From a virus, in IMG/VR virus record IMGVR_UViG_3300017951_000039, positions 1 through 37,812 of that record: a stretch of DNA of 37,812 nucleotides. One strand, 5' to 3'. Under the pieces are notes generated by a model. The model ran no database searches and was not told the origin of the DNA. It saw only the letters and a program-made list of their open reading frames with translations. Within the stretch, counting starts at the first letter, position 1. Each line of letters begins with the position of its first letter. The position numbers were made by a program, and so were the translations under genes. This document shows, piece after piece, positions 3,229 to 35,822 of this stretch.

Positions 3229-6200
3229 TACAGTCTTGAATTAAAGTTTTTTTCTAATGTCTCTAATTTAGCAGTTAAAGTATCAATCATTACTTGTTGA
3301 TCCTTCATTGCTTCTATGAGCACGCCAACCATTTTTTCATAGTCTACGGTCTTATAAGTTTTACCAGCTTCTGCATCTTCCATAAGAGGCATCTCATGCT
3401 CGTGTACAATTTCTGGTAATACTTCTTGAACCTCTTGTGCAATAAGACCTAAATCTTTTTTACCTTTTCTATAACCGCTATTCCATACGTACTCAACACC
3501 TCTTAGCTTTTTAACCTTATCTATTGCATCTGTTATAGTAACAATATCATCCTTAAAGGTTCTGTCAGAAACTGTGCTAGAATAAGCAACAACATCACCA
3601 TCTACATGGAGTGTACCATTATCTTGTAAACGCATTTCTTCAGCACCAGCTGTATACCAACGGATACCTATACTTGCGTCATAGAATGTATAGTCATGAG
3701 TATTACCTGTATAAATATCAGTAGTACTACTGTTTCTACGTCTATCATCCTCTAGTCTAAACGTAGTGCCAGATAATGTAAGACCGTAGTTACCATCAGC
3801 ACTATACGTTGTGTTTGTATTAGTGTCTGTGGAATCAATTGTAAGTTGCTTAAGAACAGGATCATATTGAACATTAGTTGCTCCCGTTCCTACAAATGTT
3901 ATTATACTTTGTGTTGTAACATTGGTTTGTTGACCACCTGCATCAATTGTCCAATAGTTATATAAATCCGCATTAGATGCACCCGTGTATCCTAATCCAG
4001 ATAAAGTTAAAGTTTTAGAAGCTAATCCAGTAATATGACCATATGTGTCAACAGTAATATCTTGAATTACTGTATTACCAGAGTTATTTACTGAAGCCTG
4101 AGAAGATGTATCTGTATGACTAAAAGTTGTACCGCTAAGTGTTAAACCACCGCCAGCAGTATAAGTTGTATTGGTATTTGTATCTGTGGCATTTAACGTA
4201 GTTCCTGATATAGATAAATTAGAACCCATTGTCAACCATTTAAATGCACCCGCACTATCGTCCCAGAAAGCCACACGATCAGCATTAGGATCTCCTAAAG
4301 ATTCAAGACCTAAATGACTTAAAGAAACTGTCACAGTACCTGAAGTACCACCCCCAGATAATCCCGTACCAGCGGTAACCCCTAAAATATCACCCGTTGC
4401 TCCGGTTGCTACAGCAGTTATTCTTCCATAAGCGTCAAGAGTAATTGTATCTATCTTAGTACCATTACCTGTAGAACCGTATGTTCCGGCTCCAGCACCG
4501 GCAGTTGCTAATGCTAAACCTGTGCTTGTTTGAGATAAACCAGTACCAGCTGCTACACTAAATGTAGTGCCTGAAAGGCTAATACCATTACCAGCACTAT
4601 AAGTGGTGTTTGTATTGGTATCTGTAGAGTTAATTGTTAATGTATTTGTTGCAGCGTCATAAATTGCTGTTGTAGCCCCAGTACCATTAACTGTAAGAGT
4701 TGCACCAGCACCCAATAGTTCAGTAGTAGCTCCGTCAGAAATTCTCCATCCACCATATGCATCAGCATTTGTAGCACCTGTATATCCTAAGTTAGCTAAT
4801 GTTAGTGTTCTAGTACCATGTGAGGTAATAACCCCATCTGTCATATAGATGTTATCTATAATAGTAGCACCTGAAGTATCAATGTCAGTGTCTGTTCCTA
4901 TGATAGTGTTGTACGTTCCTGCTAATTGATAACGTCCATCTAGATCAACCGTCACTGATCCAGAGTTTCTTGTTAATGTAAGGACACCGTCACCAGTATT
5001 AAATGATGCTCCGGTTACATATGTATTAGAGTTAGCATCACTAGTTGTTAATGAAAATGAACTTCCATCTGCTTTTACATAAGTAGTTGTATCATTTGAT
5101 ACAGTAGCAGATACAATAGGGTTAAGAGTTTTATCAGTCCAAACTTCCCTCCATCCTGGAGAATAACCAGAACCTTGATCATTATAAATATAAACCCCAT
5201 AAGCAGAACCACCAGTATTTGGAGCAATTGCAAGAGCAGTAATATTTCCACGGGTGCTGTCACTAGAATCATCTGTCCAAGTTAACCATGAAGTACCGGC
5301 AGTTTCTGTAAAGTTTCCAGCATTACTAAGATTATCATTACCTGCATATGACCAACTAGTTTTAAATGTAGAAGTATAAGAATCAAATGCACCATCACCT
5401 TCCATCTCAGAAATTAACTGGTCTGTAGTAATAGATGAATTACTTCCACCACCTGCTGTAAATGCAGTAGTACCTAATGATCTAAAATGATCATAGTAAG
5501 CTGCACCAATATCACCAGGAGTAAGAGTACGTGTACCCATACTTGTAATAACACCATCAGTAACATATATATTATCAATAATAGTAGCACCAGATGTGTT
5601 AATATCTGAGTCTGTACCAATTATAGTATTGTATGTACCGGCAAGTTGATATCTTCCATCAAGGTCAACTGTTTGATTACTAGTACCTGATACTGTTAAA
5701 GTTAATACACCATCTGATGTATTAAATGAAGCTCCATTTAAGTAATAGTTTGTATCAGTATTTGTTACTGTTTCAGTGGCTGAAGATATCCCGGTTACGT
5801 GACCGTATGTATCAATTGTAATATCTTGTATGTACGTTCTTCCTGAGTTGTTTACAGAAGAAGCACTACTTGTATCTGTGTGACTAAATGTTGTTCCAGT
5901 TAAAGTAAGACCGCTGCCTGCAGAATATGTTGTATTAGTATCAGTGTTTGTATCTGTACTTGTGATTGTTAAAGTGTTTGTTGAAGCATCATATTGAACA
6001 GTTGATGCACCCGCTCCTACAACATTTAATGTTGCGCCTGCTCCTAATAATTCTGTAGTTACAGTATCACTAATTCTCCAACCACCATAGTTATCAAATC
6101 TACCATCTAGATCTCTTGTACCAATTGCAGTAACATGACCATACGCATCAACTGTAATATCTTCTATAACAACTCCATTATTAGAACCACCATAGGCTCC

Positions 6201-28810: not shown

Positions 28811-28990
28811 TTTTACCCCCATAAAAAATTAAATCTCTGTTTCTATACACAGAAGGATTGTTTTTTTCTGCCCCCGGACCTGCAAAAATTCTGTGTTTGG
28901 CATTGGCAGTACCCCATAATGTACGGCTCCCCTCCTAAAATTTGACAGGGGGGTGCCCCCAAGATGTATAACTTAACTTAATTTAAGCAA
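28811..28990. promoter_or_regulatory. Divergent control region with GC-rich blocks
   Basis: The spacer between the late (minus) and early (plus) blocks. It is AT-rich but contains isolated GC blocks at 28869-28881 and 28924-28960. GGGGG (28948-28952) can pair with CCCCC (28956-28960), or AGGGG (28947-28951) with CCCCT (28929-28933). TTGACA at 28942-28947 and TATAAC at 28967-28972 (19-bp gap) could act as a sigma70-like promoter, or TTTG at 28941 with the same TATA box. No TAnnTTTG element seen on the plus strand. The first early gene starts at 28991. Confidence 0.4.
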
Positions 28991-29332
28991 ATGGCAAATT
29001 CAGTTTTTTTCCGCAAGCTGCTTATCAATGAGACTACAAAGAATGTAACTCTCTATGTGACAAGCAAACCACTTTCAACACAAGAAGTAGACTTCATGGG
29101 TATGAAAGTTCAAGTTCGTGTCCAAGATACTATTGTATCTGGCCAACTCAACATGGTAGACCCTTCAACTGGGACCAGTATGAAGAGTGACCATTCAATT
29201 GTAAAGAAGCTCAAGACCCTCAAGCCGGGCACAGAGCTTAAGGGCTTTACAATCAACACAGATGCACCAGTGCGTGACCTGGAAACAGGTGAACCACTGC
29301 GCAATCTGTACTGGGTTGAGGCTGCACAATAG
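28991..29332 (+). CDS. First early gene: conserved-type beta protein, function unknown
   Basis: 113 residues, start MANSVFFRKLLINETTKNVT. Largely beta strands, including EVDFMGMKVQVRVQDTIVSG and LKPGTELKGFTINTDAPVRD, ending LYWVEAAQ. An OB-like or nucleic-acid-binding fold is possible but not shown by any motif. Its codon use is visibly more G+C-rich than its neighbours (many AAG, CTC, GAC), as in a strongly expressed gene. It is the first gene of the plus-strand block. A hairpin (CTGCAC/GTGCAG) straddles its TAG stop. Confidence 0.7.
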   Translation: MANSVFFRKLLINETTKNVTLYVTSKPLSTQEVDFMGMKVQVRVQDTIVSGQLNMVDPSTGTSMKSDHSIVKKLKTLKPGTELKGFTINTDAPVRDLETGEPLRNLYWVEAAQ

Positions 29333-29337
29333 TGCAG
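29322..29337 (+). other. Hairpin straddling the stop codon
   Basis: CTGCAC (29322-29327) and GTGCAG (29332-29337) pair across AATA; the TAG stop (29330-29332) lies at the loop and first stem base. Similar stop-spanning hairpins occur at 29725-29740 and 30162-30178. Confidence 0.6.
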
Positions 29338-29345
29338 TTCTCACC

Positions 29346-29410
29346 CAATTAGTGGATGAACATTGTTACGTCCACTTCAAGGATTCAAACTTGTTACTGA
29401 TTCCTAATTG
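29346..29410 (+). ncRNA. Candidate three-way-junction RNA with twin loops
   Basis: CAATTAG (29346-29352) pairs with CTAATTG (29404-29410). Inside are two hairpins: AGTGGA/TCCACT (29351-29356 with 29371-29376) and GGATTCA/TGATTCC with one mismatch (29381-29387 with 29398-29404). Both loops carry nearly the same sequence, AACATTGTTAC and AACTTGTTAC. A few bases are shared between helices, so exact pairing needs modelling. The 195-bp spacer has no gene. It may be a leader or an independent small RNA. Confidence 0.5.
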
Positions 29411-29500
29411 ATTGTAAAAATTTATTTATTTGTGTGTTGCATTGTGTGTGAATGGTCTAAATCACCACTTTTACCCACTTTGTAACACTCAAATAGTTTC

Positions 29501-29514
29501 TATTCACCTAAATA
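29501..29514 (+). repeat. 14-mer TATTCACCTAAATA, copy 1
   Basis: Identical to 30466-30479. Both copies lie just before the start codon of a short early gene (13 bp here, 9 bp for copy 2). Possible early promoter or translation leader. Confidence 0.55.
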
Positions 29515-29527
29515 TATAGATATAGCT

Positions 29528-29734
29528 ATGAATAATAATAGCACTAAGGTTTATACACCTATAGATGAACTCACTGATTATGTTAACTCTATACATGAGT
29601 TATATAACAATCTATCTCCTTATGCTCATAACCTACATAGAGCATGTGGTGGTAATCAGTCTTTGTTATTATATATTAATTCCTTTAAGCAGGTAGTATA
29701 TAATAACCCGGCTTTTAAAACGGACCAAGCGTGA
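29528..29734 (+). CDS. Small early protein, unknown
   Basis: 68 residues, helical, Asn/Tyr-rich: start MNNNSTKVYTPIDELTDYVN, middle ELYNNLSPYAHNLHRACGGN. No motif recognised. Good A/T-rich leader with the 14-mer element. The TGA stop lies in the loop of the hairpin CCAAG/CTTGG, and untranslated structured RNA follows. Small early phage proteins often redirect host machinery; nothing here shows which. Confidence 0.55.
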   Translation: MNNNSTKVYTPIDELTDYVNSIHELYNNLSPYAHNLHRACGGNQSLLLYINSFKQVVYNNPAFKTDQA

Positions 29735-29920
29735 ACTTGGAGCTACTTGGAAATAGCTTAATAATAGAACCTTAATGGTTGCTACCATGTTTGATTTTTC
29801 CAACTCTCATCCAATTGCAGGCATTTAGTACGTAGAGGCTACGAGGCTGAATCCAATAACAGGAAGTGGTTCAAATCCACTCACTAATATTAGTTCAAGG
29901 GTTGCAACCTTGTGAGAGTT
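29725..29920 (+). ncRNA. Candidate multi-branched structured RNA
   Basis: A run of hairpins: CCAAG/CTTGG (29725-29740, over the stop codon), AGCTA/TAGCT (29741-29758), AACC/GGTT (29768-29780). Then AACTCTCA (29802-29809) pairs exactly with TGAGAGTT (29913-29920), enclosing TTAGT/ACTAA (29825-29829 with 29883-29887), CGTAG/CTACG (29831-29843), AGTGG/CCACT with loop TTCAAAT (29865-29881, a perfect tRNA T-arm shape) and CAAGG/CCTTG (29896-29912). The enclosed part resembles a cloverleaf but is not a canonical tRNA. No gene fits here. Family unknown. Confidence 0.55.
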
Positions 29921-29951
29921 CTATATTAAGATATTTCAAATATTAAGTCTT

Positions 29952-30170
29952 ATGGTAGTACTAAAAACACCAAGTCAACGTGATTCATTCATTAAGCGTA
30001 TGACTAAAAAACATACATATTCACACCATGAAGGTTGTGGATGTTGCTGGTACCACAAAAGTGTTACACGTTCAAATAATAGAATAATATTAGAGAGCGT
30101 ATCATCACATGCTGGTAGTGTAAGAGCTTCTGCTAAAGTATTAGCAGTTTTGAAAAGACGTGCAAGGTAG
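29952..30170 (+). CDS. Small basic early protein, unknown
   Basis: 72 residues, basic (ends AKVLAVLKRRAR), with a His/Cys patch HTYSHHEGCGCCWYHKS at residues 21-37 that could bind metal. Possibly nucleic-acid binding, but no known family. The TAG stop lies in the loop of GCAAGG/CCTTGC. Structured RNA surrounds it on both sides. Confidence 0.5.
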   Translation: MVVLKTPSQRDSFIKRMTKKHTYSHHEGCGCCWYHKSVTRSNNRIILESVSSHAGSVRASAKVLAVLKRRAR

Positions 30171-30460
30171 CTCCTTGCTGGGTACATTTCATGGATGTAT
30201 CATAGTCACAAGTCACAAGGTCATGTCTTGTTCAAGGTTGGTTACCTTTAGACCCTGGATTTGGGTCTTGTTCAACAAGTGGGATTTAGAGTATTGGCTT
30301 AGCAGTCTTACGCTCTAAGTCTTGCGTAATTTATTAACCCGTTACCTGGAATCAAACACTTTTATTATGATGTGAGCCTTAATCCAGGGCACAAAGTAGG
30401 TACCTACTGTGCGAGGCAAAGAAATATACCTGAGCATGTATCCAAACTGCTCTTTTTTTT
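30162..30460 (+). ncRNA. Long structured non-coding RNA with terminator
   Basis: A 318-bp gene-free stretch. Hairpins seen: GCAAGG/CCTTGC over the stop (30162-30178), TACAT/ATGTA (30183-30199, 7-nt loop), AAGGT/ACCTT (30234-30248), AGACCC/GGGTCT (30250-30268, 7-nt loop), TTAGAG/CTCTAA (30286-30318), CCTGGA/TCCAGG (30345-30388), and GCAC-AGTAG/CTACT-GTGC (30389-30412). It ends in the terminator at 30432-30460. Dense pairing plus a terminator favours a stable RNA made separately or processed. I find no tRNA, RNase P, tmRNA or group I intron signature. Confidence 0.6.
30432..30460 (+). terminator. Intrinsic terminator of the long ncRNA
   Basis: GAGCA (30432-30436) pairs with TGCTC (30448-30452), followed at once by eight T. 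It closes the structured region; the next gene starts 28 bp later. Confidence 0.75.
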
Positions 30461-30465
30461 AAACA

Positions 30466-30479
30466 TATTCACCTAAATA
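30466..30479 (+). repeat. 14-mer TATTCACCTAAATA, copy 2
   Basis: Identical to 29501-29514. It lies between the terminator and the next start codon, exactly where a new promoter would be needed. Confidence 0.55.
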
Positions 30480-30488
30480 CTTTTTAAA

Positions 30489-30692
30489 ATGAAATTAACA
30501 AAAACAATGCTCATTGGGATTGCAACCTTAATTGCTACCTGGTTGTTCTTAACAACCGTACTGTGGTTGTGTGCAGAATTCGCAACCTTTAGACACTTTC
30601 TAACACATCCGGCTATGTTCGTGGGAATGTTATTCGTTGGTTGGATACCTGCTTTTATTGTAGCTGGTGAATACTATGAGAATTATGGATAA
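30489..30692 (+). CDS. Small two-helix membrane protein
   Basis: 67 residues. Two hydrophobic segments, about 8-30 (IGIATLIATWLFLTTVLWLC) and about 42-60 (MFVGMLFVGWIPAFIVAG), separated by a short His/Phe-rich loop. An inner-membrane protein with a holin-like layout is possible, but many early membrane proteins look similar. It overlaps the next gene by 17 bp, so the pair is coupled. Function unknown. Confidence 0.6.
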   Translation: MKLTKTMLIGIATLIATWLFLTTVLWLCAEFATFRHFLTHPAMFVGMLFVGWIPAFIVAGEYYENYG

Positions 30693-30909
30693 GTATTTTA
30701 AATACTTTGTCCTTTTCATACTCTGTTATGGATGCTTCCAGTATGGTCGTATTCATGATGAAGGTATCAAAGTAAATCAGCCTGAGTATAACCACGTTGT
30801 TTATGTAGACAACTGTGAGATCGTATCTGATACTAGTGGTAATATTAATTGCATCTGGTATCGTGATAACGTTTACACTATTGATACAACCTTTTTAGAA
30901 AATTTATAA
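30676..30909 (+). CDS. Small membrane-anchored protein
   Basis: 77 residues from ATG 30676 (another ATG at 30685). A hydrophobic helix near the start (YFKYFVLFILCYGCFQYGRI) serves as uncleaved anchor or signal, followed by a soluble beta-like domain with two Cys (VYVDNCEIVSDTSGNINCIW). Overlaps the preceding membrane protein gene. Both may work together at the host membrane. Unknown function. Confidence 0.55.
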   Translation: MRIMDKYFKYFVLFILCYGCFQYGRIHDEGIKVNQPEYNHVVYVDNCEIVSDTSGNINCIWYRDNVYTIDTTFLENL

Positions 30910-30911
30910 CC

Positions 30912-31202
30912 ATGCGTATACATATTACACACCCAGATTACTTTGCCCGTTTAGGGACAAAGATTGTATTAGTATTTGATAACCCAGCAGGTCCTAACAA
31001 ATCACTAATACGTAGAGAAAATGGAGATTTTGACACTGTTTTATCTGAAAAGTTAGAATCAGTGGAACTTGGAGAGTTAACTCAAACACTAATGAGTAAC
31101 GTCACACTACGTGAGATGGCACAAAACGAAGGTCTTATTGACATTGGTGATGTGCACACAGATGATAGTAATTATATTACTATGTTCTGGAGACACTCCT
31201 AA
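30912..31202 (+). CDS. Early protein of unknown function
   Basis: 96 residues. Start MRIHITHPDYFARLGTKIVL, then VFDNPAGPNKSLIRRENGDF, and a helical middle with VELGELTQTLMSNVTLREMA. No motif recognised. Starts 2 bp after the previous stop, so same operon. A short hairpin (GGAG/CTCC) immediately precedes its stop. Confidence 0.6.
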   Translation: MRIHITHPDYFARLGTKIVLVFDNPAGPNKSLIRRENGDFDTVLSEKLESVELGELTQTLMSNVTLREMAQNEGLIDIGDVHTDDSNYITMFWRHS

Positions 31203-31277
31203 ATTGTTTACAATTGTGGTGATTTATCACCGCTTATTCCTAAGATGTAAAAAGGTGGGGTTGTAATAATCCCACCT
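31202..31277 (+). other. Three consecutive hairpins after an early gene
   Basis: AATTG/CAATT with a TTTA loop (31203-31215), GGTGA/TCACC with a TTTA loop (31218-31231) and GGTGGG/CCCACC with an 11-nt loop (31254-31276). On the plus strand no T-run follows the last; on the minus strand TTTTT follows it. Could be a processing or attenuating region. Confidence 0.5.
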
Positions 31278-31310
31278 ATTACTTATCTTAGCTCTATAAA
31301 CTTATTAATC

Positions 31311-31460
31311 ATGGAAGATAGAGAATGTGTTTACTTGTACTACAGAGATGGTTCTGAATTCATTACACCATCTTTAGATCACGCAATTGAAAGAACAGAC
31401 CAAAAACAAATCACAATGAAATGTGAGGACGGTGAGGTTAGACAAATATCACTAACATGA
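31311..31460 (+). CDS. 49-residue early mini-protein
   Basis: ATG 31311, TGA 31458. Start MEDRECVYLYYRDGSEFITP, end EDGEVRQISLT; short beta-rich. The stop overlaps the next ATG (ATGA), which supports it. No known family. Confidence 0.5.
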   Translation: MEDRECVYLYYRDGSEFITPSLDHAIERTDQKQITMKCEDGEVRQISLT

Positions 31461-31612
31461 AAAACTTATTTAAAATAGTATTAATGACAGGAGCACTCTT
31501 TACGGGTGCTTTTGTTTTTTATAAAATATCTAGTATTATGTTAAACATTATAGTTGTTATGCTAAAGATTATAGTTAGCATGATCACAGGAATACCAATT
31601 GAATCCTTATAA
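31457..31612 (+). CDS. 51-residue membrane mini-protein
   Basis: ATG 31457 overlapping the previous TGA. Almost entirely hydrophobic: MKNLFKIVLMTGALFTGAFV followed by IMLNIIVVMLKIIVSMITGI, i.e. one or two membrane helices. Holin-like size and composition, but early position and no lysis neighbour nearby. Function unknown. Confidence 0.5.
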   Translation: MKNLFKIVLMTGALFTGAFVFYKISSIMLNIIVVMLKIIVSMITGIPIESL

Positions 31613-31622
31613 TTATTACATC

Positions 31623-31742
31623 ATGAAGAAATTTTCAACAGACATCCAATTTGCTGAGTTTATCGGCTTTGGTATTGCCTGGCAACACAAGCGTGTTGCT
31701 GTATGCATACCGTTTGTAATGTTTGAACTGTCATGGGCATGA
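31623..31742 (+). CDS. 39-residue early mini-protein
   Basis: ATG 31623, TGA 31740. Start MKKFSTDIQFAEFIGFGIAW; amphipathic and aromatic. It fits between two genes on the same strand with short gaps (10 and 6 bp). No homolog recalled; could be a spurious ORF. Confidence 0.4.
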   Translation: MKKFSTDIQFAEFIGFGIAWQHKRVAVCIPFVMFELSWA

Positions 31743-31748
31743 ACATTT

Positions 31749-32324
31749 ATGCGTAGTTTGATAGATCAAATAAGAAATGTAGAGAAAAGTAATGATAGAT
31801 TTCATACTAATGTCTCTAAGATCCTACACTTTGATAGAGGAACCTTGTTTAAAGGTCACTCTGGCAGCGTGTATCACGGTACTTTAAACAACAAAGATCA
31901 ATACTTGAATATATTCAACAAGTATTTTGATGTTTCTATAAGTACTGAATATAATTTTGAATCTGGTAAGAGTATAATAAGCCTGTTTATTGACTCACCA
32001 ACACCTAAATACTTGAAGAATTTTATTGATACCATATCAAATAATGGTACAATGGATGTCAGAGCTAAAGAAGGCAGTGAACTTAACTATGCTTTTTCTG
32101 ATCACATGACCACAATACACTACAGCCTCAGTTATGATGGCTTTGTTGTGTTTGGTCACTATGATAACTTACGTCTCGCAAAGAAACTAAGAACTAGCTT
32201 GAAGGTATTTAAGAGTATTATCAGAGAGAATGGAGAAGATCCGGAGTTCTGCAAAGCAGTTGTGTTGCCTTATAAGGACAAAAAACGTGACTGTATTGCA
32301 TTATCTGATGGGTTGTTTAAATAA
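31749..32324 (+). CDS. Early protein of unknown function
   Basis: 191 residues. Start MRSLIDQIRNVEKSNDRFHT. Mixed alpha/beta, with beta-like DVSISTEYNFESGKSIISLF and a C-terminal part DCIALSDGLFK. No catalytic motif that I can name. It is the largest gene of this early stretch and is followed by a structured, repeat-containing spacer. Start chosen as the first ATG after the previous stop. Confidence 0.6.
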   Translation: MRSLIDQIRNVEKSNDRFHTNVSKILHFDRGTLFKGHSGSVYHGTLNNKDQYLNIFNKYFDVSISTEYNFESGKSIISLFIDSPTPKYLKNFIDTISNNGTMDVRAKEGSELNYAFSDHMTTIHYSLSYDGFVVFGHYDNLRLAKKLRTSLKVFKSIIRENGEDPEFCKAVVLPYKDKKRDCIALSDGLFK

Positions 32325-32403
32325 AAAGTGCAATATACTGCACACTAACAGTACCAGTATACTAAGAGAGAGTATATAGTATAAGAAAAGTGCAATATAT
32401 TGC
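32324..32403 (+). repeat. 18-nt direct repeat pair with inner hairpin
   Basis: AAAAGTGCAATATACTGC (32324-32341) and AAAAGTGCAATATATTGC (32386-32403) differ at one base and are 62 bp apart. Between them TATACT/AGTATA forms a 6-bp stem with a 7-nt loop. The first copy can also fold as GTGCA/TGCAC, and the second contains the palindrome GCAATATATTGC. Possible binding sites in the leader of the next gene. Confidence 0.55.
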
Positions 32404-32417
32404 CTATTTAGGTGATG

Positions 32418-32505
32418 AATTATAGTTTGTTCCACTGTTGTTAACGGTTTCAGATCTCATAATCAGGACGCAAGCTAGACGCATCTAGGCAAACTATAAT
32501 TTTTT
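32418..32505 (+). ncRNA. Candidate structured RNA closed by a 12-bp helix
   Basis: AATTATAGTTTG (32418-32429) pairs perfectly with CAAACTATAATT (32490-32501), followed by a T-run. Inside lie ACTGTT/AACGGT (32434-32448) and CTAGA/TCTAG with a CGCA tetraloop (32475-32488). The closing helix plus T-run looks like a large terminator or attenuator. It ends 12 bp before the next ATG, so it may control that gene or be a separate small RNA. Confidence 0.55.
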
Positions 32506-32517
32506 AATTAGAATCTT

Positions 32518-33009
32518 ATGAAAGTATCTAAAAGAACAATTACAAACATGCTTGCAACAGCTCTTAGTAACAAGAGTGTAAATTATCACCTAGCAGTAGA
32601 GGCTATTGTGAACAATATGGCTGACAGTTCTTTAGAGTACATGCTGCACATGCTTACTTCTAAAGAACCAGAAACCCTTATTTACCCTGGTAGTTATGTG
32701 AAAATTCCTATGGATAAGTATCATTCAAGTAAATACTTTGATTATGGTACTTTAAAAGACATGGGTTTGGTTACAGAAGACGGTATGGTATACGCAGAAG
32801 TCATTGGTGATTCATCATGGAGTACTGAGTACAATCCCTTTTATGGCTCAATGAAAGTAAAGTACTTGTACCATGATGATGATAAACAATTAAAGTTTCA
32901 TGAAGACAGTATAAACACATCAGATTTAACTTTGATTGATAAACTTGATATAGAATATTTTAAAAGTTTAAACCATGGCAAAAATATCACACCAGCTCTT
33001 GAGATCTGA
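32518..33009 (+). CDS. Early/middle protein of unknown function
   Basis: 163 residues. Helical N-terminus (MKVSKRTITNMLATALSNKS), then beta-like segments (ETLIYPGSYVKIPMDKYHSS; MVYAEVIGDSSWSTEYNPFY). A SH3-like barrel or small regulatory domain is possible; no family named. It overlaps the next gene by 35 bp in another frame, which is long for this genome. Confidence 0.55.
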   Translation: MKVSKRTITNMLATALSNKSVNYHLAVEAIVNNMADSSLEYMLHMLTSKEPETLIYPGSYVKIPMDKYHSSKYFDYGTLKDMGLVTEDGMVYAEVIGDSSWSTEYNPFYGSMKVKYLYHDDDKQLKFHEDSINTSDLTLIDKLDIEYFKSLNHGKNITPALEI

Positions 33010-33175
33010 GGTAAAAAATTGGGGAACAATTAAAAGAATGTTCTCTAGACAAACACATAGCTTTGGAAGCTATATGAACAAGAAGTATCATATGACTGAT
33101 ACTAACTTAGCAGAGGCTGAAACAAGCTTTGCTGCTATTAGAATACTACTTGATAGACATGTCATATTCCAATAA
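32975..33175 (+). CDS. Small basic helical protein
   Basis: 66 residues, basic, start MAKISHQLLRSEVKNWGTIK, followed by a helix with AEAETSFAAIRILLDRHVIF. Overlaps the gene before (35 bp) and the HTH protein gene after (17 bp). No known family. Its good start and its place in the chain argue for expression. Confidence 0.5.
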   Translation: MAKISHQLLRSEVKNWGTIKRMFSRQTHSFGSYMNKKYHMTDTNLAEAETSFAAIRILLDRHVIFQ

Positions 33176-33407
33176 ATTTGGTATTGTCAATCAAGATGTT
33201 TTACAAGACCCTGAATTGAGTATCCAGGCTAAAGGACTTTACAGTTTGTTATGTACATACGCTGATAAAAATAGACAGTGCTTTCCATCTATAAGCACCC
33301 TTGCAGATCACTGCAATAAATCAGTAAGAACCGTATCATACTTAATAGAAGAACTAAAAGCAAAAGGATATGTAAAAAGAAGAGGTCGTGTATTAATTTT
33401 AAGATAA
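33159..33407 (+). CDS. Helix-turn-helix protein, replication-initiator type
   Basis: 82 residues from ATG 33159. The domain LSIQAKGLYSLLCTYADKNR followed by QCFPSISTLADHCNKSVRTV and SYLIEELKAKGYVKRRGR is the HTH_36-type winged helix found at the start of plasmid and phage replication initiators: serine/threonine-rich turn, recognition helix SVRTVSYLIEELKAKG, and wing. It ends right after the domain, so it is either a stand-alone regulator or initiator remnant. It lies in the early/middle block. DNA-binding is well supported; its target is unknown. Confidence 0.75.
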   Translation: MSYSNKFGIVNQDVLQDPELSIQAKGLYSLLCTYADKNRQCFPSISTLADHCNKSVRTVSYLIEELKAKGYVKRRGRVLILR

Positions 33408-33517
33408 ATACTTAGCTATATGTATGCTAATTATTTGTAGATCTTATCCCTTTAACTCTTAATTATACTGTTCTAGTAACATTACTATTCTTATTTTTAC
33501 AACTATTGTTGTAGATA

Positions 33518-33802
33518 ATGATATATCAGTTACCAAATGGACGTATAATTGAACTTTCTGTAGAACAGTTCCTAGAACTGGATGATATAGAGGTTAGAGA
33601 GCTTAATGGTTTAAGTTCCACATACAGTCTTGAGTGTAGCAATCCTTTTTATAATTTATATTCAACTGGTTCAACAGCTGATAAATTAGTTGTAGAAGAG
33701 TTATTACATGATGATGAGTTTGAACCGGACTTATTTGATTATGTAAACTTAGATCCAACAAATAAATTTAAAGATGATTACTTTCACCCAGATGACATTT
33801 AA
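33518..33802 (+). CDS. Small acidic conserved-type protein
   Basis: 94 residues, start MIYQLPNGRIIELSVEQFLE, acidic throughout, ending DDYFHPDDI. The start (form: MIYQLPNGRxIxLxxExxLxLxD) is one I associate with small proteins of crAss-like phages, of unknown function. It lies after a 110-bp spacer with a small hairpin (ACAAC/GTTGT at 33500-33513). Confidence 0.6.
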   Translation: MIYQLPNGRIIELSVEQFLELDDIEVRELNGLSSTYSLECSNPFYNLYSTGSTADKLVVEELLHDDEFEPDLFDYVNLDPTNKFKDDYFHPDDI

Positions 33803-33829
33803 GTAGAACCTTTAATAATTTAAAAAAAA

Positions 33830-34402
33830 ATGCAAAACAAAGTTCAAATTGTTCCCGATGAATTGGGGAACGTAATCCGTGTGTCTCAAAACAATTCAGA
33901 ATTTGGTCACGTTAGACTACAACAAGAGCGTGTAACCTTTGGCAATACTGGCTGGGTTAACCGTAAGACTGTCAGCACATTACTTCATGGTAAAGTAGAA
34001 GATCTTCGTGATATGGGTATTCATAACATGAAAGAATTAGCAGGTAAAATTGTAGTACGTGAGTCTCTTGAACCATTTAACACTAATGATCCTGATCGTG
34101 ATCTTAAGATTGCTGGTGACACTGGTATTATTTGTTGCCAAGACGGACAACCTATTTATAGGAAAACAGTCTTTACTGCAGATACAAATGCAGAAGATGT
34201 ATTAGTAGCCCATGACAATGGTGATGCTATCCGTGAGGCAAATCAAGACACATCTAGTAACAAAATCAAGGCAGCTACTACATCAGAAGCATTTGATGCA
34301 GAAGAAAGTCAAATTGATTTAGAAGACTCTATTGCTGAAGTACAAGCTGAAGCACAAGAGGAAGAGTTAGAAGAAGTAGAAGACTCTACTTTTGAACTAT
34401 AA
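33830..34402 (+). CDS. Conserved acidic-tailed protein, possible ssDNA-binding role
   Basis: 190 residues. Residues about 1-125 are beta-rich (QIVPDELGNVIRVSQNNSEF; FGNTGWVNRKTVSTLLHGKV; GTIICC-type strand GDTGIICCQDGQPIYRKTVF). The C-terminal about 45 residues are very acidic (EESQIDLEDSIAEVQAEAQE) and end in EDSTFEL. A beta domain plus acidic, aromatic-ended tail is the layout of many phage ssDNA-binding proteins, but no sequence motif proves it. Codon use suggests high expression. A structured RNA with terminator follows. Confidence 0.6.
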   Translation: MQNKVQIVPDELGNVIRVSQNNSEFGHVRLQQERVTFGNTGWVNRKTVSTLLHGKVEDLRDMGIHNMKELAGKIVVRESLEPFNTNDPDRDLKIAGDTGIICCQDGQPIYRKTVFTADTNAEDVLVAHDNGDAIREANQDTSSNKIKAATTSEAFDAEESQIDLEDSIAEVQAEAQEEELEEVEDSTFEL

Positions 34403-34594
34403 TAGTACTTACTACGCTATCCATTATAACAGCGTCCCAGAGTAAGTCTTTTATCAAGAGGCAGTGAAGCTGTAAAAGTATGATACAGGTAAAGGTTAAC
34501 CTCATACTAAATTCTTAGGAATTAGCAGTAACCTTGAAAGACCCGAAACCTCTTAAACATTGAGGGCTGGCAGAAATGCTGGCCCTCTTTTTTT
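34403..34594 (+). ncRNA. Structured non-coding RNA with terminator
   Basis: A 218-bp gene-free spacer with consecutive helices. ACTTACT (34407-34413) pairs with AGTAAGT (34441-34447), and directly inside ACGCT/AGCGT (34414-34435). CTTTTA/TAAAAG (34448-34478) holds CAG/CTG. TATG..AGGT pairs with ACCTCATA (34479-34506). CTAAATTC pairs with GAATTAG around TTAG (34507-34525). Then comes the terminator at 34562-34594. Nearly every base up to 34525 is in or next to a helix. I do not recognise a family. It may be an independent small RNA or the 3' end of the preceding mRNA. Confidence 0.65.
34562..34594 (+). terminator. Intrinsic terminator
   Basis: GAGGGC (34562-34567) pairs with GCCCTC (34582-34587), extended by CAG/CTG with a bulge, and followed by seven T. 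It ends the structured RNA unit and the transcript of the acidic-tailed protein. Confidence 0.85.
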
Positions 34595-34620
34595 CTCACT
34601 GAACAATAACAACTAAAGAT

Positions 34621-35551: not shown

Positions 35552-35625
35552 GGCCTCATAGCTCAATTGGATAGAGCAACAGCCTTCTAAGCTGTAGGTT
35601 CAAGGTTCGAGTCCTTGTGGGGTCA
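35552..35625 (+). tRNA. tRNA-Arg(TCT)
   Basis: Full cloverleaf: acceptor GGCCTCA/TGGGGTC, D-arm GCTC/GAGC, anticodon arm ACAGC-CTTCTAA-GCTGT with anticodon TCT (35586-35588), T-arm CAAGG-TTCGAGT-CCTTG, discriminator A. CCA not encoded. It reads AGA, the usual Arg codon of AT-rich genomes. Confidence 0.95.
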
Positions 35626-35631
35626 CTAGAT

Positions 35632-35717
35632 GGCCGGATGATGGAAGTGGTAGACATGACAGACTTAAAATCTGTTGGGTAGTAATACCCGTGTGGGTTC
35701 AAGTCCCACTCCGGCTA
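35632..35717 (+). tRNA. tRNA-Leu(TAA)
   Basis: Acceptor GGCCGGA/TCCGGCT, T at position 8, anticodon arm ACAGA-CTTAAAA-TCTGT (anticodon TAA), long class II variable arm, T-arm GTGGG-TTCAAGT-CCCAC, discriminator A. It reads TTA, the main Leu codon here. Only 6 bp after tRNA-Arg. Confidence 0.93.
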
Positions 35718-35721
35718 CTTA

Positions 35722-35795
35722 GCTCTCTTAGCTCAGTTGGTCAGAGCACTCCGCTCATAACGGATAGGTCACAGGTTCAAGCCCTGTAGGGAGCA
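35722..35795 (+). tRNA. tRNA-Met(CAT), elongator type
   Basis: Acceptor GCTCTCT/AGGGAGC, D-arm GCTC/GAGC, anticodon loop CTCATAA, T-arm ACAGG-TTCAAGC-CCTGT, discriminator A. The sequence after the anticodon (AGGTCACAGGTTCAAG) resembles bacterial elongator tRNA-Met; the lysidine-modified tRNA-Ile(CAT) is the alternative. Followed by CC but not a full CCA. Confidence 0.9.
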
Positions 35796-35822
35796 CCTAT
35801 GTTTCACATAAAAAAAAAGAAA

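Follow-up and report, generated by a model that had tools for sequence, protein, structure and literature searches.

Gene-free gaps in the early region of a crAss-like phage fragment hold several apparently unrelated structured RNA modules

The early region of a virus DNA fragment of 37,812 nucleotides (IMG/VR record IMGVR_UViG_3300017951_000039, positions 1 to 37,812; hereafter the window) contains gene-free gaps in which we found at least four RNA families, termed E, H, F and K, each recurring in dozens to >100 other virus contigs. The terminal stems of these RNAs co-vary and the cores are fixed, with 29 distinct outer stems in E, 22 in H and 12 in F. That E, H and F are all conserved structured RNAs is almost certain, and K is very likely another. 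An earlier note on this DNA had suggested that the gaps might encode a single small-RNA family of the phage. The modules share neither sequence nor fold and are combined differently in different phages, which speaks against a single family; the region appears to hold several unrelated, exchangeable modules instead.

The gene-free stretches that had been described between 29322 and 34594 are real. Bases outside open reading frames (ORFs) make up 1378/5273 (26%) of this region compared to 1369/28767 (4.8%) of the late region. ORF 33830-34402 was used as a lead and yielded 44 related virus contigs with conserved gene order. Virus contigs are given L numbers here; L002 is the same phage as the window, L003-L005 are close relatives, and the remaining relatives are further removed, with identities in the ORF 33830-34402 protein that fall as low as 30%. 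Each stretch was also folded as a single sequence and compared with shuffles (z). Stretches 29340-29415, 29795-29930, 32418-32510 and 34403-34453 folded better than shuffles, and stretches 29738-29800, 30171-30316 and 34455-34556, the last containing E, did not. The single-sequence folding was mixed, and comparison between contigs was therefore decisive. Covariation, the criterion set in the earlier note, strongly supported structured RNA for E, H and F and more weakly for K, 32418-32501 and 30345-30417. Stretches 30171-30316 and 29738-29800 folded no better than chance.

E was revealed by comparison only; its folding alone was not significant (Table 1). In the window, its outer stem encloses AGUGAAGCUGUAA and CCUUGAAAGACCCGAA, and its inner hairpin loop forms a pseudoknot with the strand before UUGAAAGACCC. 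We scanned 2.9 million viral contigs for CCTTGAAAGACCCGAA, a pattern that left out the outer stem, and obtained 83 contigs, over half of which had the full motif. Among 48 aligned members, the outer stem was paired at 6/6 bases in 45 and at 5/6 in three. The distinct outer stems had a mean of 5.97 pairs compared to 4.68 with shuffled partners (maximum 5.14), and the loop-to-strand pseudoknot was paired in 48/48 members, in four sequence versions. Two-sided pair changes occurred in all helices of twelve aligned long members, whose covariation score was double that of shuffles and was lost when the partners were slid by one base. A model built from these twelve members, all from other phages (R1), matched the window E at 6.2e-8. 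E retains ~40 fixed core residues and was present exactly once in each of the ten phage records searched whole (10/10). Part of E also matches the opposite strand of L006 and L008, at another location.

A scan for the hairpin-plus-strand core of E revealed permuted forms in ~25 further contigs, Vibrio phage KVP40 among them. The same pattern had one match only, on a short contig of a metagenome-assembled genome, in 257 Gb of prokaryote genomes; the long form of E is thus essentially absent from these genomes, and E forms of this pattern are essentially restricted to viruses. Klebsiella phage RaK2 carries E. Circularly permuted forms lie between tRNA-His and tRNA-Cys in KVP40 and within the transfer RNA (tRNA) array of Listeria phage LP-125, both assigned from pairing read by hand, with model scores that were not significant. 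The 20-nt hairpin loop of LP-125 is common to 54 Listeria records. In the crAss-like Cellulophaga phage phi14:2, E lies inside a transfer-messenger RNA (tmRNA) predicted by ARAGORN, which has tRNA-like ends and a reading frame for the tag GSSVQKLAMVA and which Rfam matched with an E-value of 3.6e-15, one bit under the gathering score. Here E is directly 3' of the tag stop codon and is opened at a different helix than free E. The same order was observed in L120, where E follows a frame that resembles a tag and ends in FEPKLQMAA, with a group I intron further on; this tmRNA was recognised by eye, from its likeness to phi14:2, and was not called by ARAGORN. The L120 tmRNA-like gene (~360-1010) apparently contains both the E domain and the intron.

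H is a 44-nt hairpin with a fixed core, CGCU..AACAGCGUCCCAG, within a covarying stem. Among the 22 distinct outer stems, pairing is complete or almost complete throughout. In 31 aligned members, 97.3% of cells were paired, with a covariation score of 0.448 compared to 0.166 in shuffles. Among the matches listed by a scan for the H core, 51/119 had a single spacing where 31 spacings were allowed, which is not expected by chance. The window H scored 66 bits against the H model (R2), whose training set includes L002, the same phage. Another match to the model, in L496 (E-value 3e-4), has the otherwise fixed inner stem altered on both sides. Each of twelve records carrying H had one copy (12/12). 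H lies upstream of E in both the window and L074, and a weaker H match (E-value 0.008) was found just upstream of E in L061; H and E are adjacent in the window and L074 and probably also in L061. In L003-L005, an H-like hairpin occupies the E slot, as seen by eye and not detected by the model. No convincing match to H was found in cultivated phages or plasmids.

F has a closing stem, a CAAGG-GUUGCAA-CCUUG hairpin and the element TCCAA(GC/TTGC)AGG. The hairpin pattern alone was found in 116 contigs. The whole frame is retained in most of them and occurs at ~100 loci. Its 12 distinct 5' stems were paired at 7.83 of 8 bases, compared to 6.43 when shuffled (maximum 7.5), and without a pairing filter, 7 or 8 of the 8 bases were paired in 15/17 stem combinations. 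Within the constant frame, the inner domain falls into ~23 sequence clusters, suggesting a frame that is retained while its content is exchanged. In cultivated phages, we found one weak 28-nt match to F and nothing else. K, a small pseudoknot, was found in 11-17 distinct versions, frequently 11-18 nt upstream of F. Its first stem occurs as TAC/GTA, TTC/GAA, ATC/GAT, GTC/GAC and CAC/GTG, and shuffles were equal or better in 0.6%. The second stem is GAGCA/TGCTC or AAGCA/TGCTT in most versions and is broken in two, in what is a small sample.

Table 1. Features of the window between 29340 and 34594, with z for folding of each sequence alone
Feature	Position	Strand	z	Description
Possible structured stretch	29340..29412	+	-2.3	After ORF 28991-29332
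F RNA	29802..29920	+	-3.2	Frame AACTCTCA-TCCAATTGCAGG ... TCAAGGGTTGCAACCTTG-TGAGAGTT, exchangeable inner domain
No support for structure	30171..30316	+	-0.8	Homologues in same phage only
Candidate pseudoknot	30345..30417	+		CCTGGA/TCCAGG crossing GCCTT/GAGGC, hairpin GTAGGTACCTAC
K RNA, small H-type pseudoknot	30425..30454	+		TATACCTGAGCATGTATCCAAACTGCTCTT then T run
Candidate RNA	32418..32501	+	-2.45	Outer stem ATTATAGTTTG/CAAACTATAAT, GTTCC/GGAC, hairpin GCTAG..CTAGGC, fixed GACGCAAGCT
H RNA, 44-nt hairpin	34405..34448	+		GUAC-stem / CGCU-loop-AGCG / UCCCAG / stem-GUC; begins 2 nt after stop of ORF 33830-34402
E RNA	34456..34554	+	-0.86	Outer stem AAGAGG/CCTCTT around AGUGAAGCUGUAA, hairpin loop AAAGGUUA, UAACC-UUGAAAGACCCGAA; pseudoknot GGUUA/UAACC
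Intrinsic terminator	34562..34594	+	-4.6	Site kept in most relatives, stem altered yet paired; clade-shared

The remaining stretches were supported to different degrees. The structure claimed for 32418-32505 gained modest support from its folding and from matched stem changes in relatives, with the stem of 32418-32501 altered and still paired in L003, L005, L009 and L011; a viral scan for this module returned the same phage only. The claim for 30162-30460 was supported in its 3' part, which contains K and a segment conserved in three relatives (30345-30417), and not for 30171-30316. The 30345-30417 segment is known from four phages only and has one clear compensatory change, GCCTT/AAGGC to GTCTT/AAGAC in L005; close relatives were the sole true matches in a scan for it. 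Both the 32418 and the 30345 modules are plausible structured RNAs, and reasonably likely to be such. Of stretch 29725-29920, the 3' part is F and the 5' hairpins (29738-29800) have a z of -0.7. For 29340-29412, only near-identical homologues were found, with CATTGTTACGTCCA in common with L009-type relatives. The stretch at 34403-34594 is structured as claimed and consists of three separate things: H, E and a terminator. The gap 3' of ORF 33830-34402 is 62-139 nt in most relatives, with little in it except one hairpin. In the nearer relatives, and in many of the others, this hairpin has a stem that varies in sequence and keeps its pairing, with a U run behind it. In the window, the gap, at 34403-34620, is 218 nt because the two modules precede the terminator. 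Of the two intrinsic terminators in the earlier account, this one was upheld, and the other, at ~30430-30462, was not called by a terminator scanner. The latter consists of GAGCA..TGCTC with an 11-nt loop and a T run and overlaps K, which may also terminate transcription.

The window derives from a crAss-like phage, of which it is a fragment. Two of its proteins, the portal and the major head protein, have matches in PHROG head families, and the portal is ~23% identical to annotated crAss-like portals. Of the cultivated phages, Leptolyngbya phage Lbo-JY46 has the portal that matches best (34% identity); none of E, H, F and K was found in it. No cultivated phage matched the 6-kb region in a BLAST search. 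Late genes are read from the minus strand and early genes from the plus strand. The intergenic region from which the two diverge (28860-28990) is shared by most of the 44 relatives, and its conservation is wider than that of the other gaps tested. At 29411-29527, a conserved GTGTGTTGCATTGTG ... TAACACTC ... AAATATAGATATAGCTAT is common to L003, L004, L005 and L017, before differing genes. At 32325-32417, a core, CTAACAGTACCAGTATA, is kept in distant relatives between two copies of a GTGCAATATACTGCAC-like palindrome. The palindrome varies among phages, both copies changing in step (GGAACTATAGTTCC in L003 and L005), much as an operator would if its binding were specific to each phage.

Elsewhere, E and H are frequently found next to tRNA genes. 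Among partly related contigs, E lies <=15 nt from a tRNA in 22/50 cases and H in 15/49, where ~7% would be expected on either strand, and the module is on the same strand as the tRNA in all of these cases (22/22 and 15/15). In the window itself, three tRNA genes (Arg-TCT, Leu-TAA and Met-CAT; 35552-35797) lie ~1 kb 3' of E on the same strand. A further hairpin with the loop GTAGTTGCAAAT and a varying stem was observed in phage tRNA arrays, often right after H (L061, L086, L203, L205, L220, L230, L248, L257 and L307). The tRNA array of L079 contains an Rfam freshwater-1 RNA (5023-5084) and an E RNA. A dedicated promoter-like TAnnTTTG site lies 14-19 nt upstream of E in L006, L008, L048, L068 and L171; in L006 (4120-4245) and L008 (5418-5523), on the minus strand, E opens a leftward transcript 17-19 nt after this Bacteroidetes-type site.

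Together, these results suggest that the early region would be a one-strand array in which short protein genes are interspersed with unrelated structured RNA modules that are swapped among phages, the slot after ORF 33830-34402 holding H, E and the clade's usual terminator, and those at ~29.8 and 30.4 kb holding F and K. We consider it rather probable that the gaps serve as slots for small RNA genes and that the modules are small RNAs derived from early transcripts and tRNA arrays. They would be transcribed together with the early genes or tRNAs, be cut free by enzymes of tRNA processing or by ribozymes that cleave themselves, and last as discrete RNAs of ~45-125 nt shielded by the closed terminal stem. 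A possible way of separating such RNAs from the transcript is suggested by two relatives that carry F and have a known ribozyme in the equivalent slot: a Hatchet ribozyme lies 8 nt after the stop codon of a short gene in L480 (10327-10463), and a Pistol ribozyme 12 nt after that of another in L491 (1122-1190). Several points weigh against this interpretation. The tRNA counts and the family members come from partly related contigs and are not independent events. E lies before a gene in L006, L008, L065, L090 and L119 and could be cis-acting there, Rfam ribozyme models had no match in the window, and two of the stretches originally described lack comparative support.

The same neighbourhood raises the possibility that H, perhaps together with E, represents a new kind of self-cleaving ribozyme, one that would trim the 3' ends of tRNAs and cleave mRNAs after stop codons. 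H is 3-5 nt downstream of the tRNA in all 15 tRNA cases and 2 nt after a stop codon in the window, a placement resembling that of Hatchet and Pistol above. Ribozymes are typically small, with a fixed core, and the circular permutation of E is also typical of them. Theta ribozymes next to phage tRNAs have been described (PMC10879173) and are proposed to trim the tRNA 3' ends. However, no H or E member matches an Rfam ribozyme, and E, which lies between tRNAs with a closed stem at the junctions and ~40 fixed residues, places no cleavage site at a tRNA end. We regard this explanation as unlikely.

Equally unlikely is that the modules are cis elements of the neighbouring transcript, acting as leaders of riboswitch type, as stabilisers of its 3' end or as signals for processing, and yield no free RNA. 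In several phages they directly follow a stop codon or precede a start codon. K, with the T run behind it, could terminate transcription, and the E slot closes with a terminator. However, the contexts of E and H vary by phage, from tRNA arrays to positions after stop codons, before unrelated genes and, for E, inside tmRNA, and neither occupies a constant position before a constant gene class, by which we tested for a riboswitch or leader. A single copy of E or H per genome also fits a general stabiliser poorly. Action as separate RNAs is, on this evidence, the likely mode. That the modules are tiny mobile DNA elements, resembling miniature inverted-repeat transposable elements (MITEs) with the pairing ends as terminal inverted repeats, is very improbable: F has inverted-repeat ends and an exchangeable interior and modules move between places among related phages, but E and H are single-copy per genome and lie on the same strand as the tRNAs, and fixed single-stranded cores with a covarying pseudoknot suit RNA rather than DNA ends.

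The earlier note had raised action on host translation, on RNA decay or as processed leaders. With tRNA arrays and a tmRNA as surroundings, translation or RNA processing is favoured above decay. More specifically, E may act in trans on the translation machinery, a tentative proposal made from its position and prompted by the ~40 fixed core residues, the tolerance of circular permutation, the tRNA surroundings and the tmRNA domain of phi14:2. We also looked for ribosomal RNA (rRNA) mimicry. Escherichia coli 23S rRNA has 13 nt in common with the KVP40-type core, at 2163 in the L1 stalk, and 12 nt in common with the E type, at 668; because the sites differ and shuffles reach 11 and 12, these were treated as chance. 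A bolder view, and a decidedly doubtful one, is that phages of widely different hosts share a small-RNA toolkit, set in tRNA arrays and among short early genes, in which H would be a new class of self-cleaving ribozyme that frees tRNA and mRNA ends and E a ribosome-acting domain, used either free or as an interchangeable part of tmRNA.

The claim that no described RNA set matches holds as far as Rfam goes: E, H, F and K had no match in Rfam 15. No described versions were found in the open-access literature, and an earlier account in subscription papers is possible. In the window, neither ARAGORN nor Rfam found a tmRNA, the Rfam models of GOLLD and ROOL had no match, and a group I intron or tmRNA was rejected for lack of a match. 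Stable structured RNAs have been annotated in phage tRNA clusters since the T4 species 1 and 2 RNAs (rnaC and rnaD). Like E and H, these are small stable RNAs (119-139 nt) that adjoin tRNA genes on the same strand, and to our knowledge they have no known function to date. Kinship with them was rejected, since they do not match E or H in sequence and in the T4 tRNA region R1 gave only 14 bits, inside a coding gene, and R2 gave no match. GOLLD and ROOL, two kinds of structured RNA with no known function, also occur close to the tRNA islands of phages (PMC12286853). They are several hundred nucleotides long, compared to 30-160 nt for E, H, F and K, which neither Rfam model matches; in L071 and L105, GOLLD lies in the same array as E.

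tmRNAs usually have pseudoknots behind the tag stop codon, and this is where the E core lies within tmRNA in phi14:2 and, by eye, in L120. Elsewhere E stands alone and, unlike tmRNA, has no tag frame and no tRNA-like end. With its strong covariation, defined core, permuted forms and cultivated carriers (phi14:2, KVP40, RaK2 and LP-125), E makes the question of its role open to laboratory testing. E, H, F and K fit no model of theta, Pistol or Hatchet ribozymes. Like these ribozymes (theta being HDV-like), they are small pseudoknotted or junction RNAs by phage tRNAs or after genes. The RNA modules shared by tRNA arrays and early gaps, together with Hatchet and Pistol in the slots of relatives, suggest a biological setting for such ribozymes.

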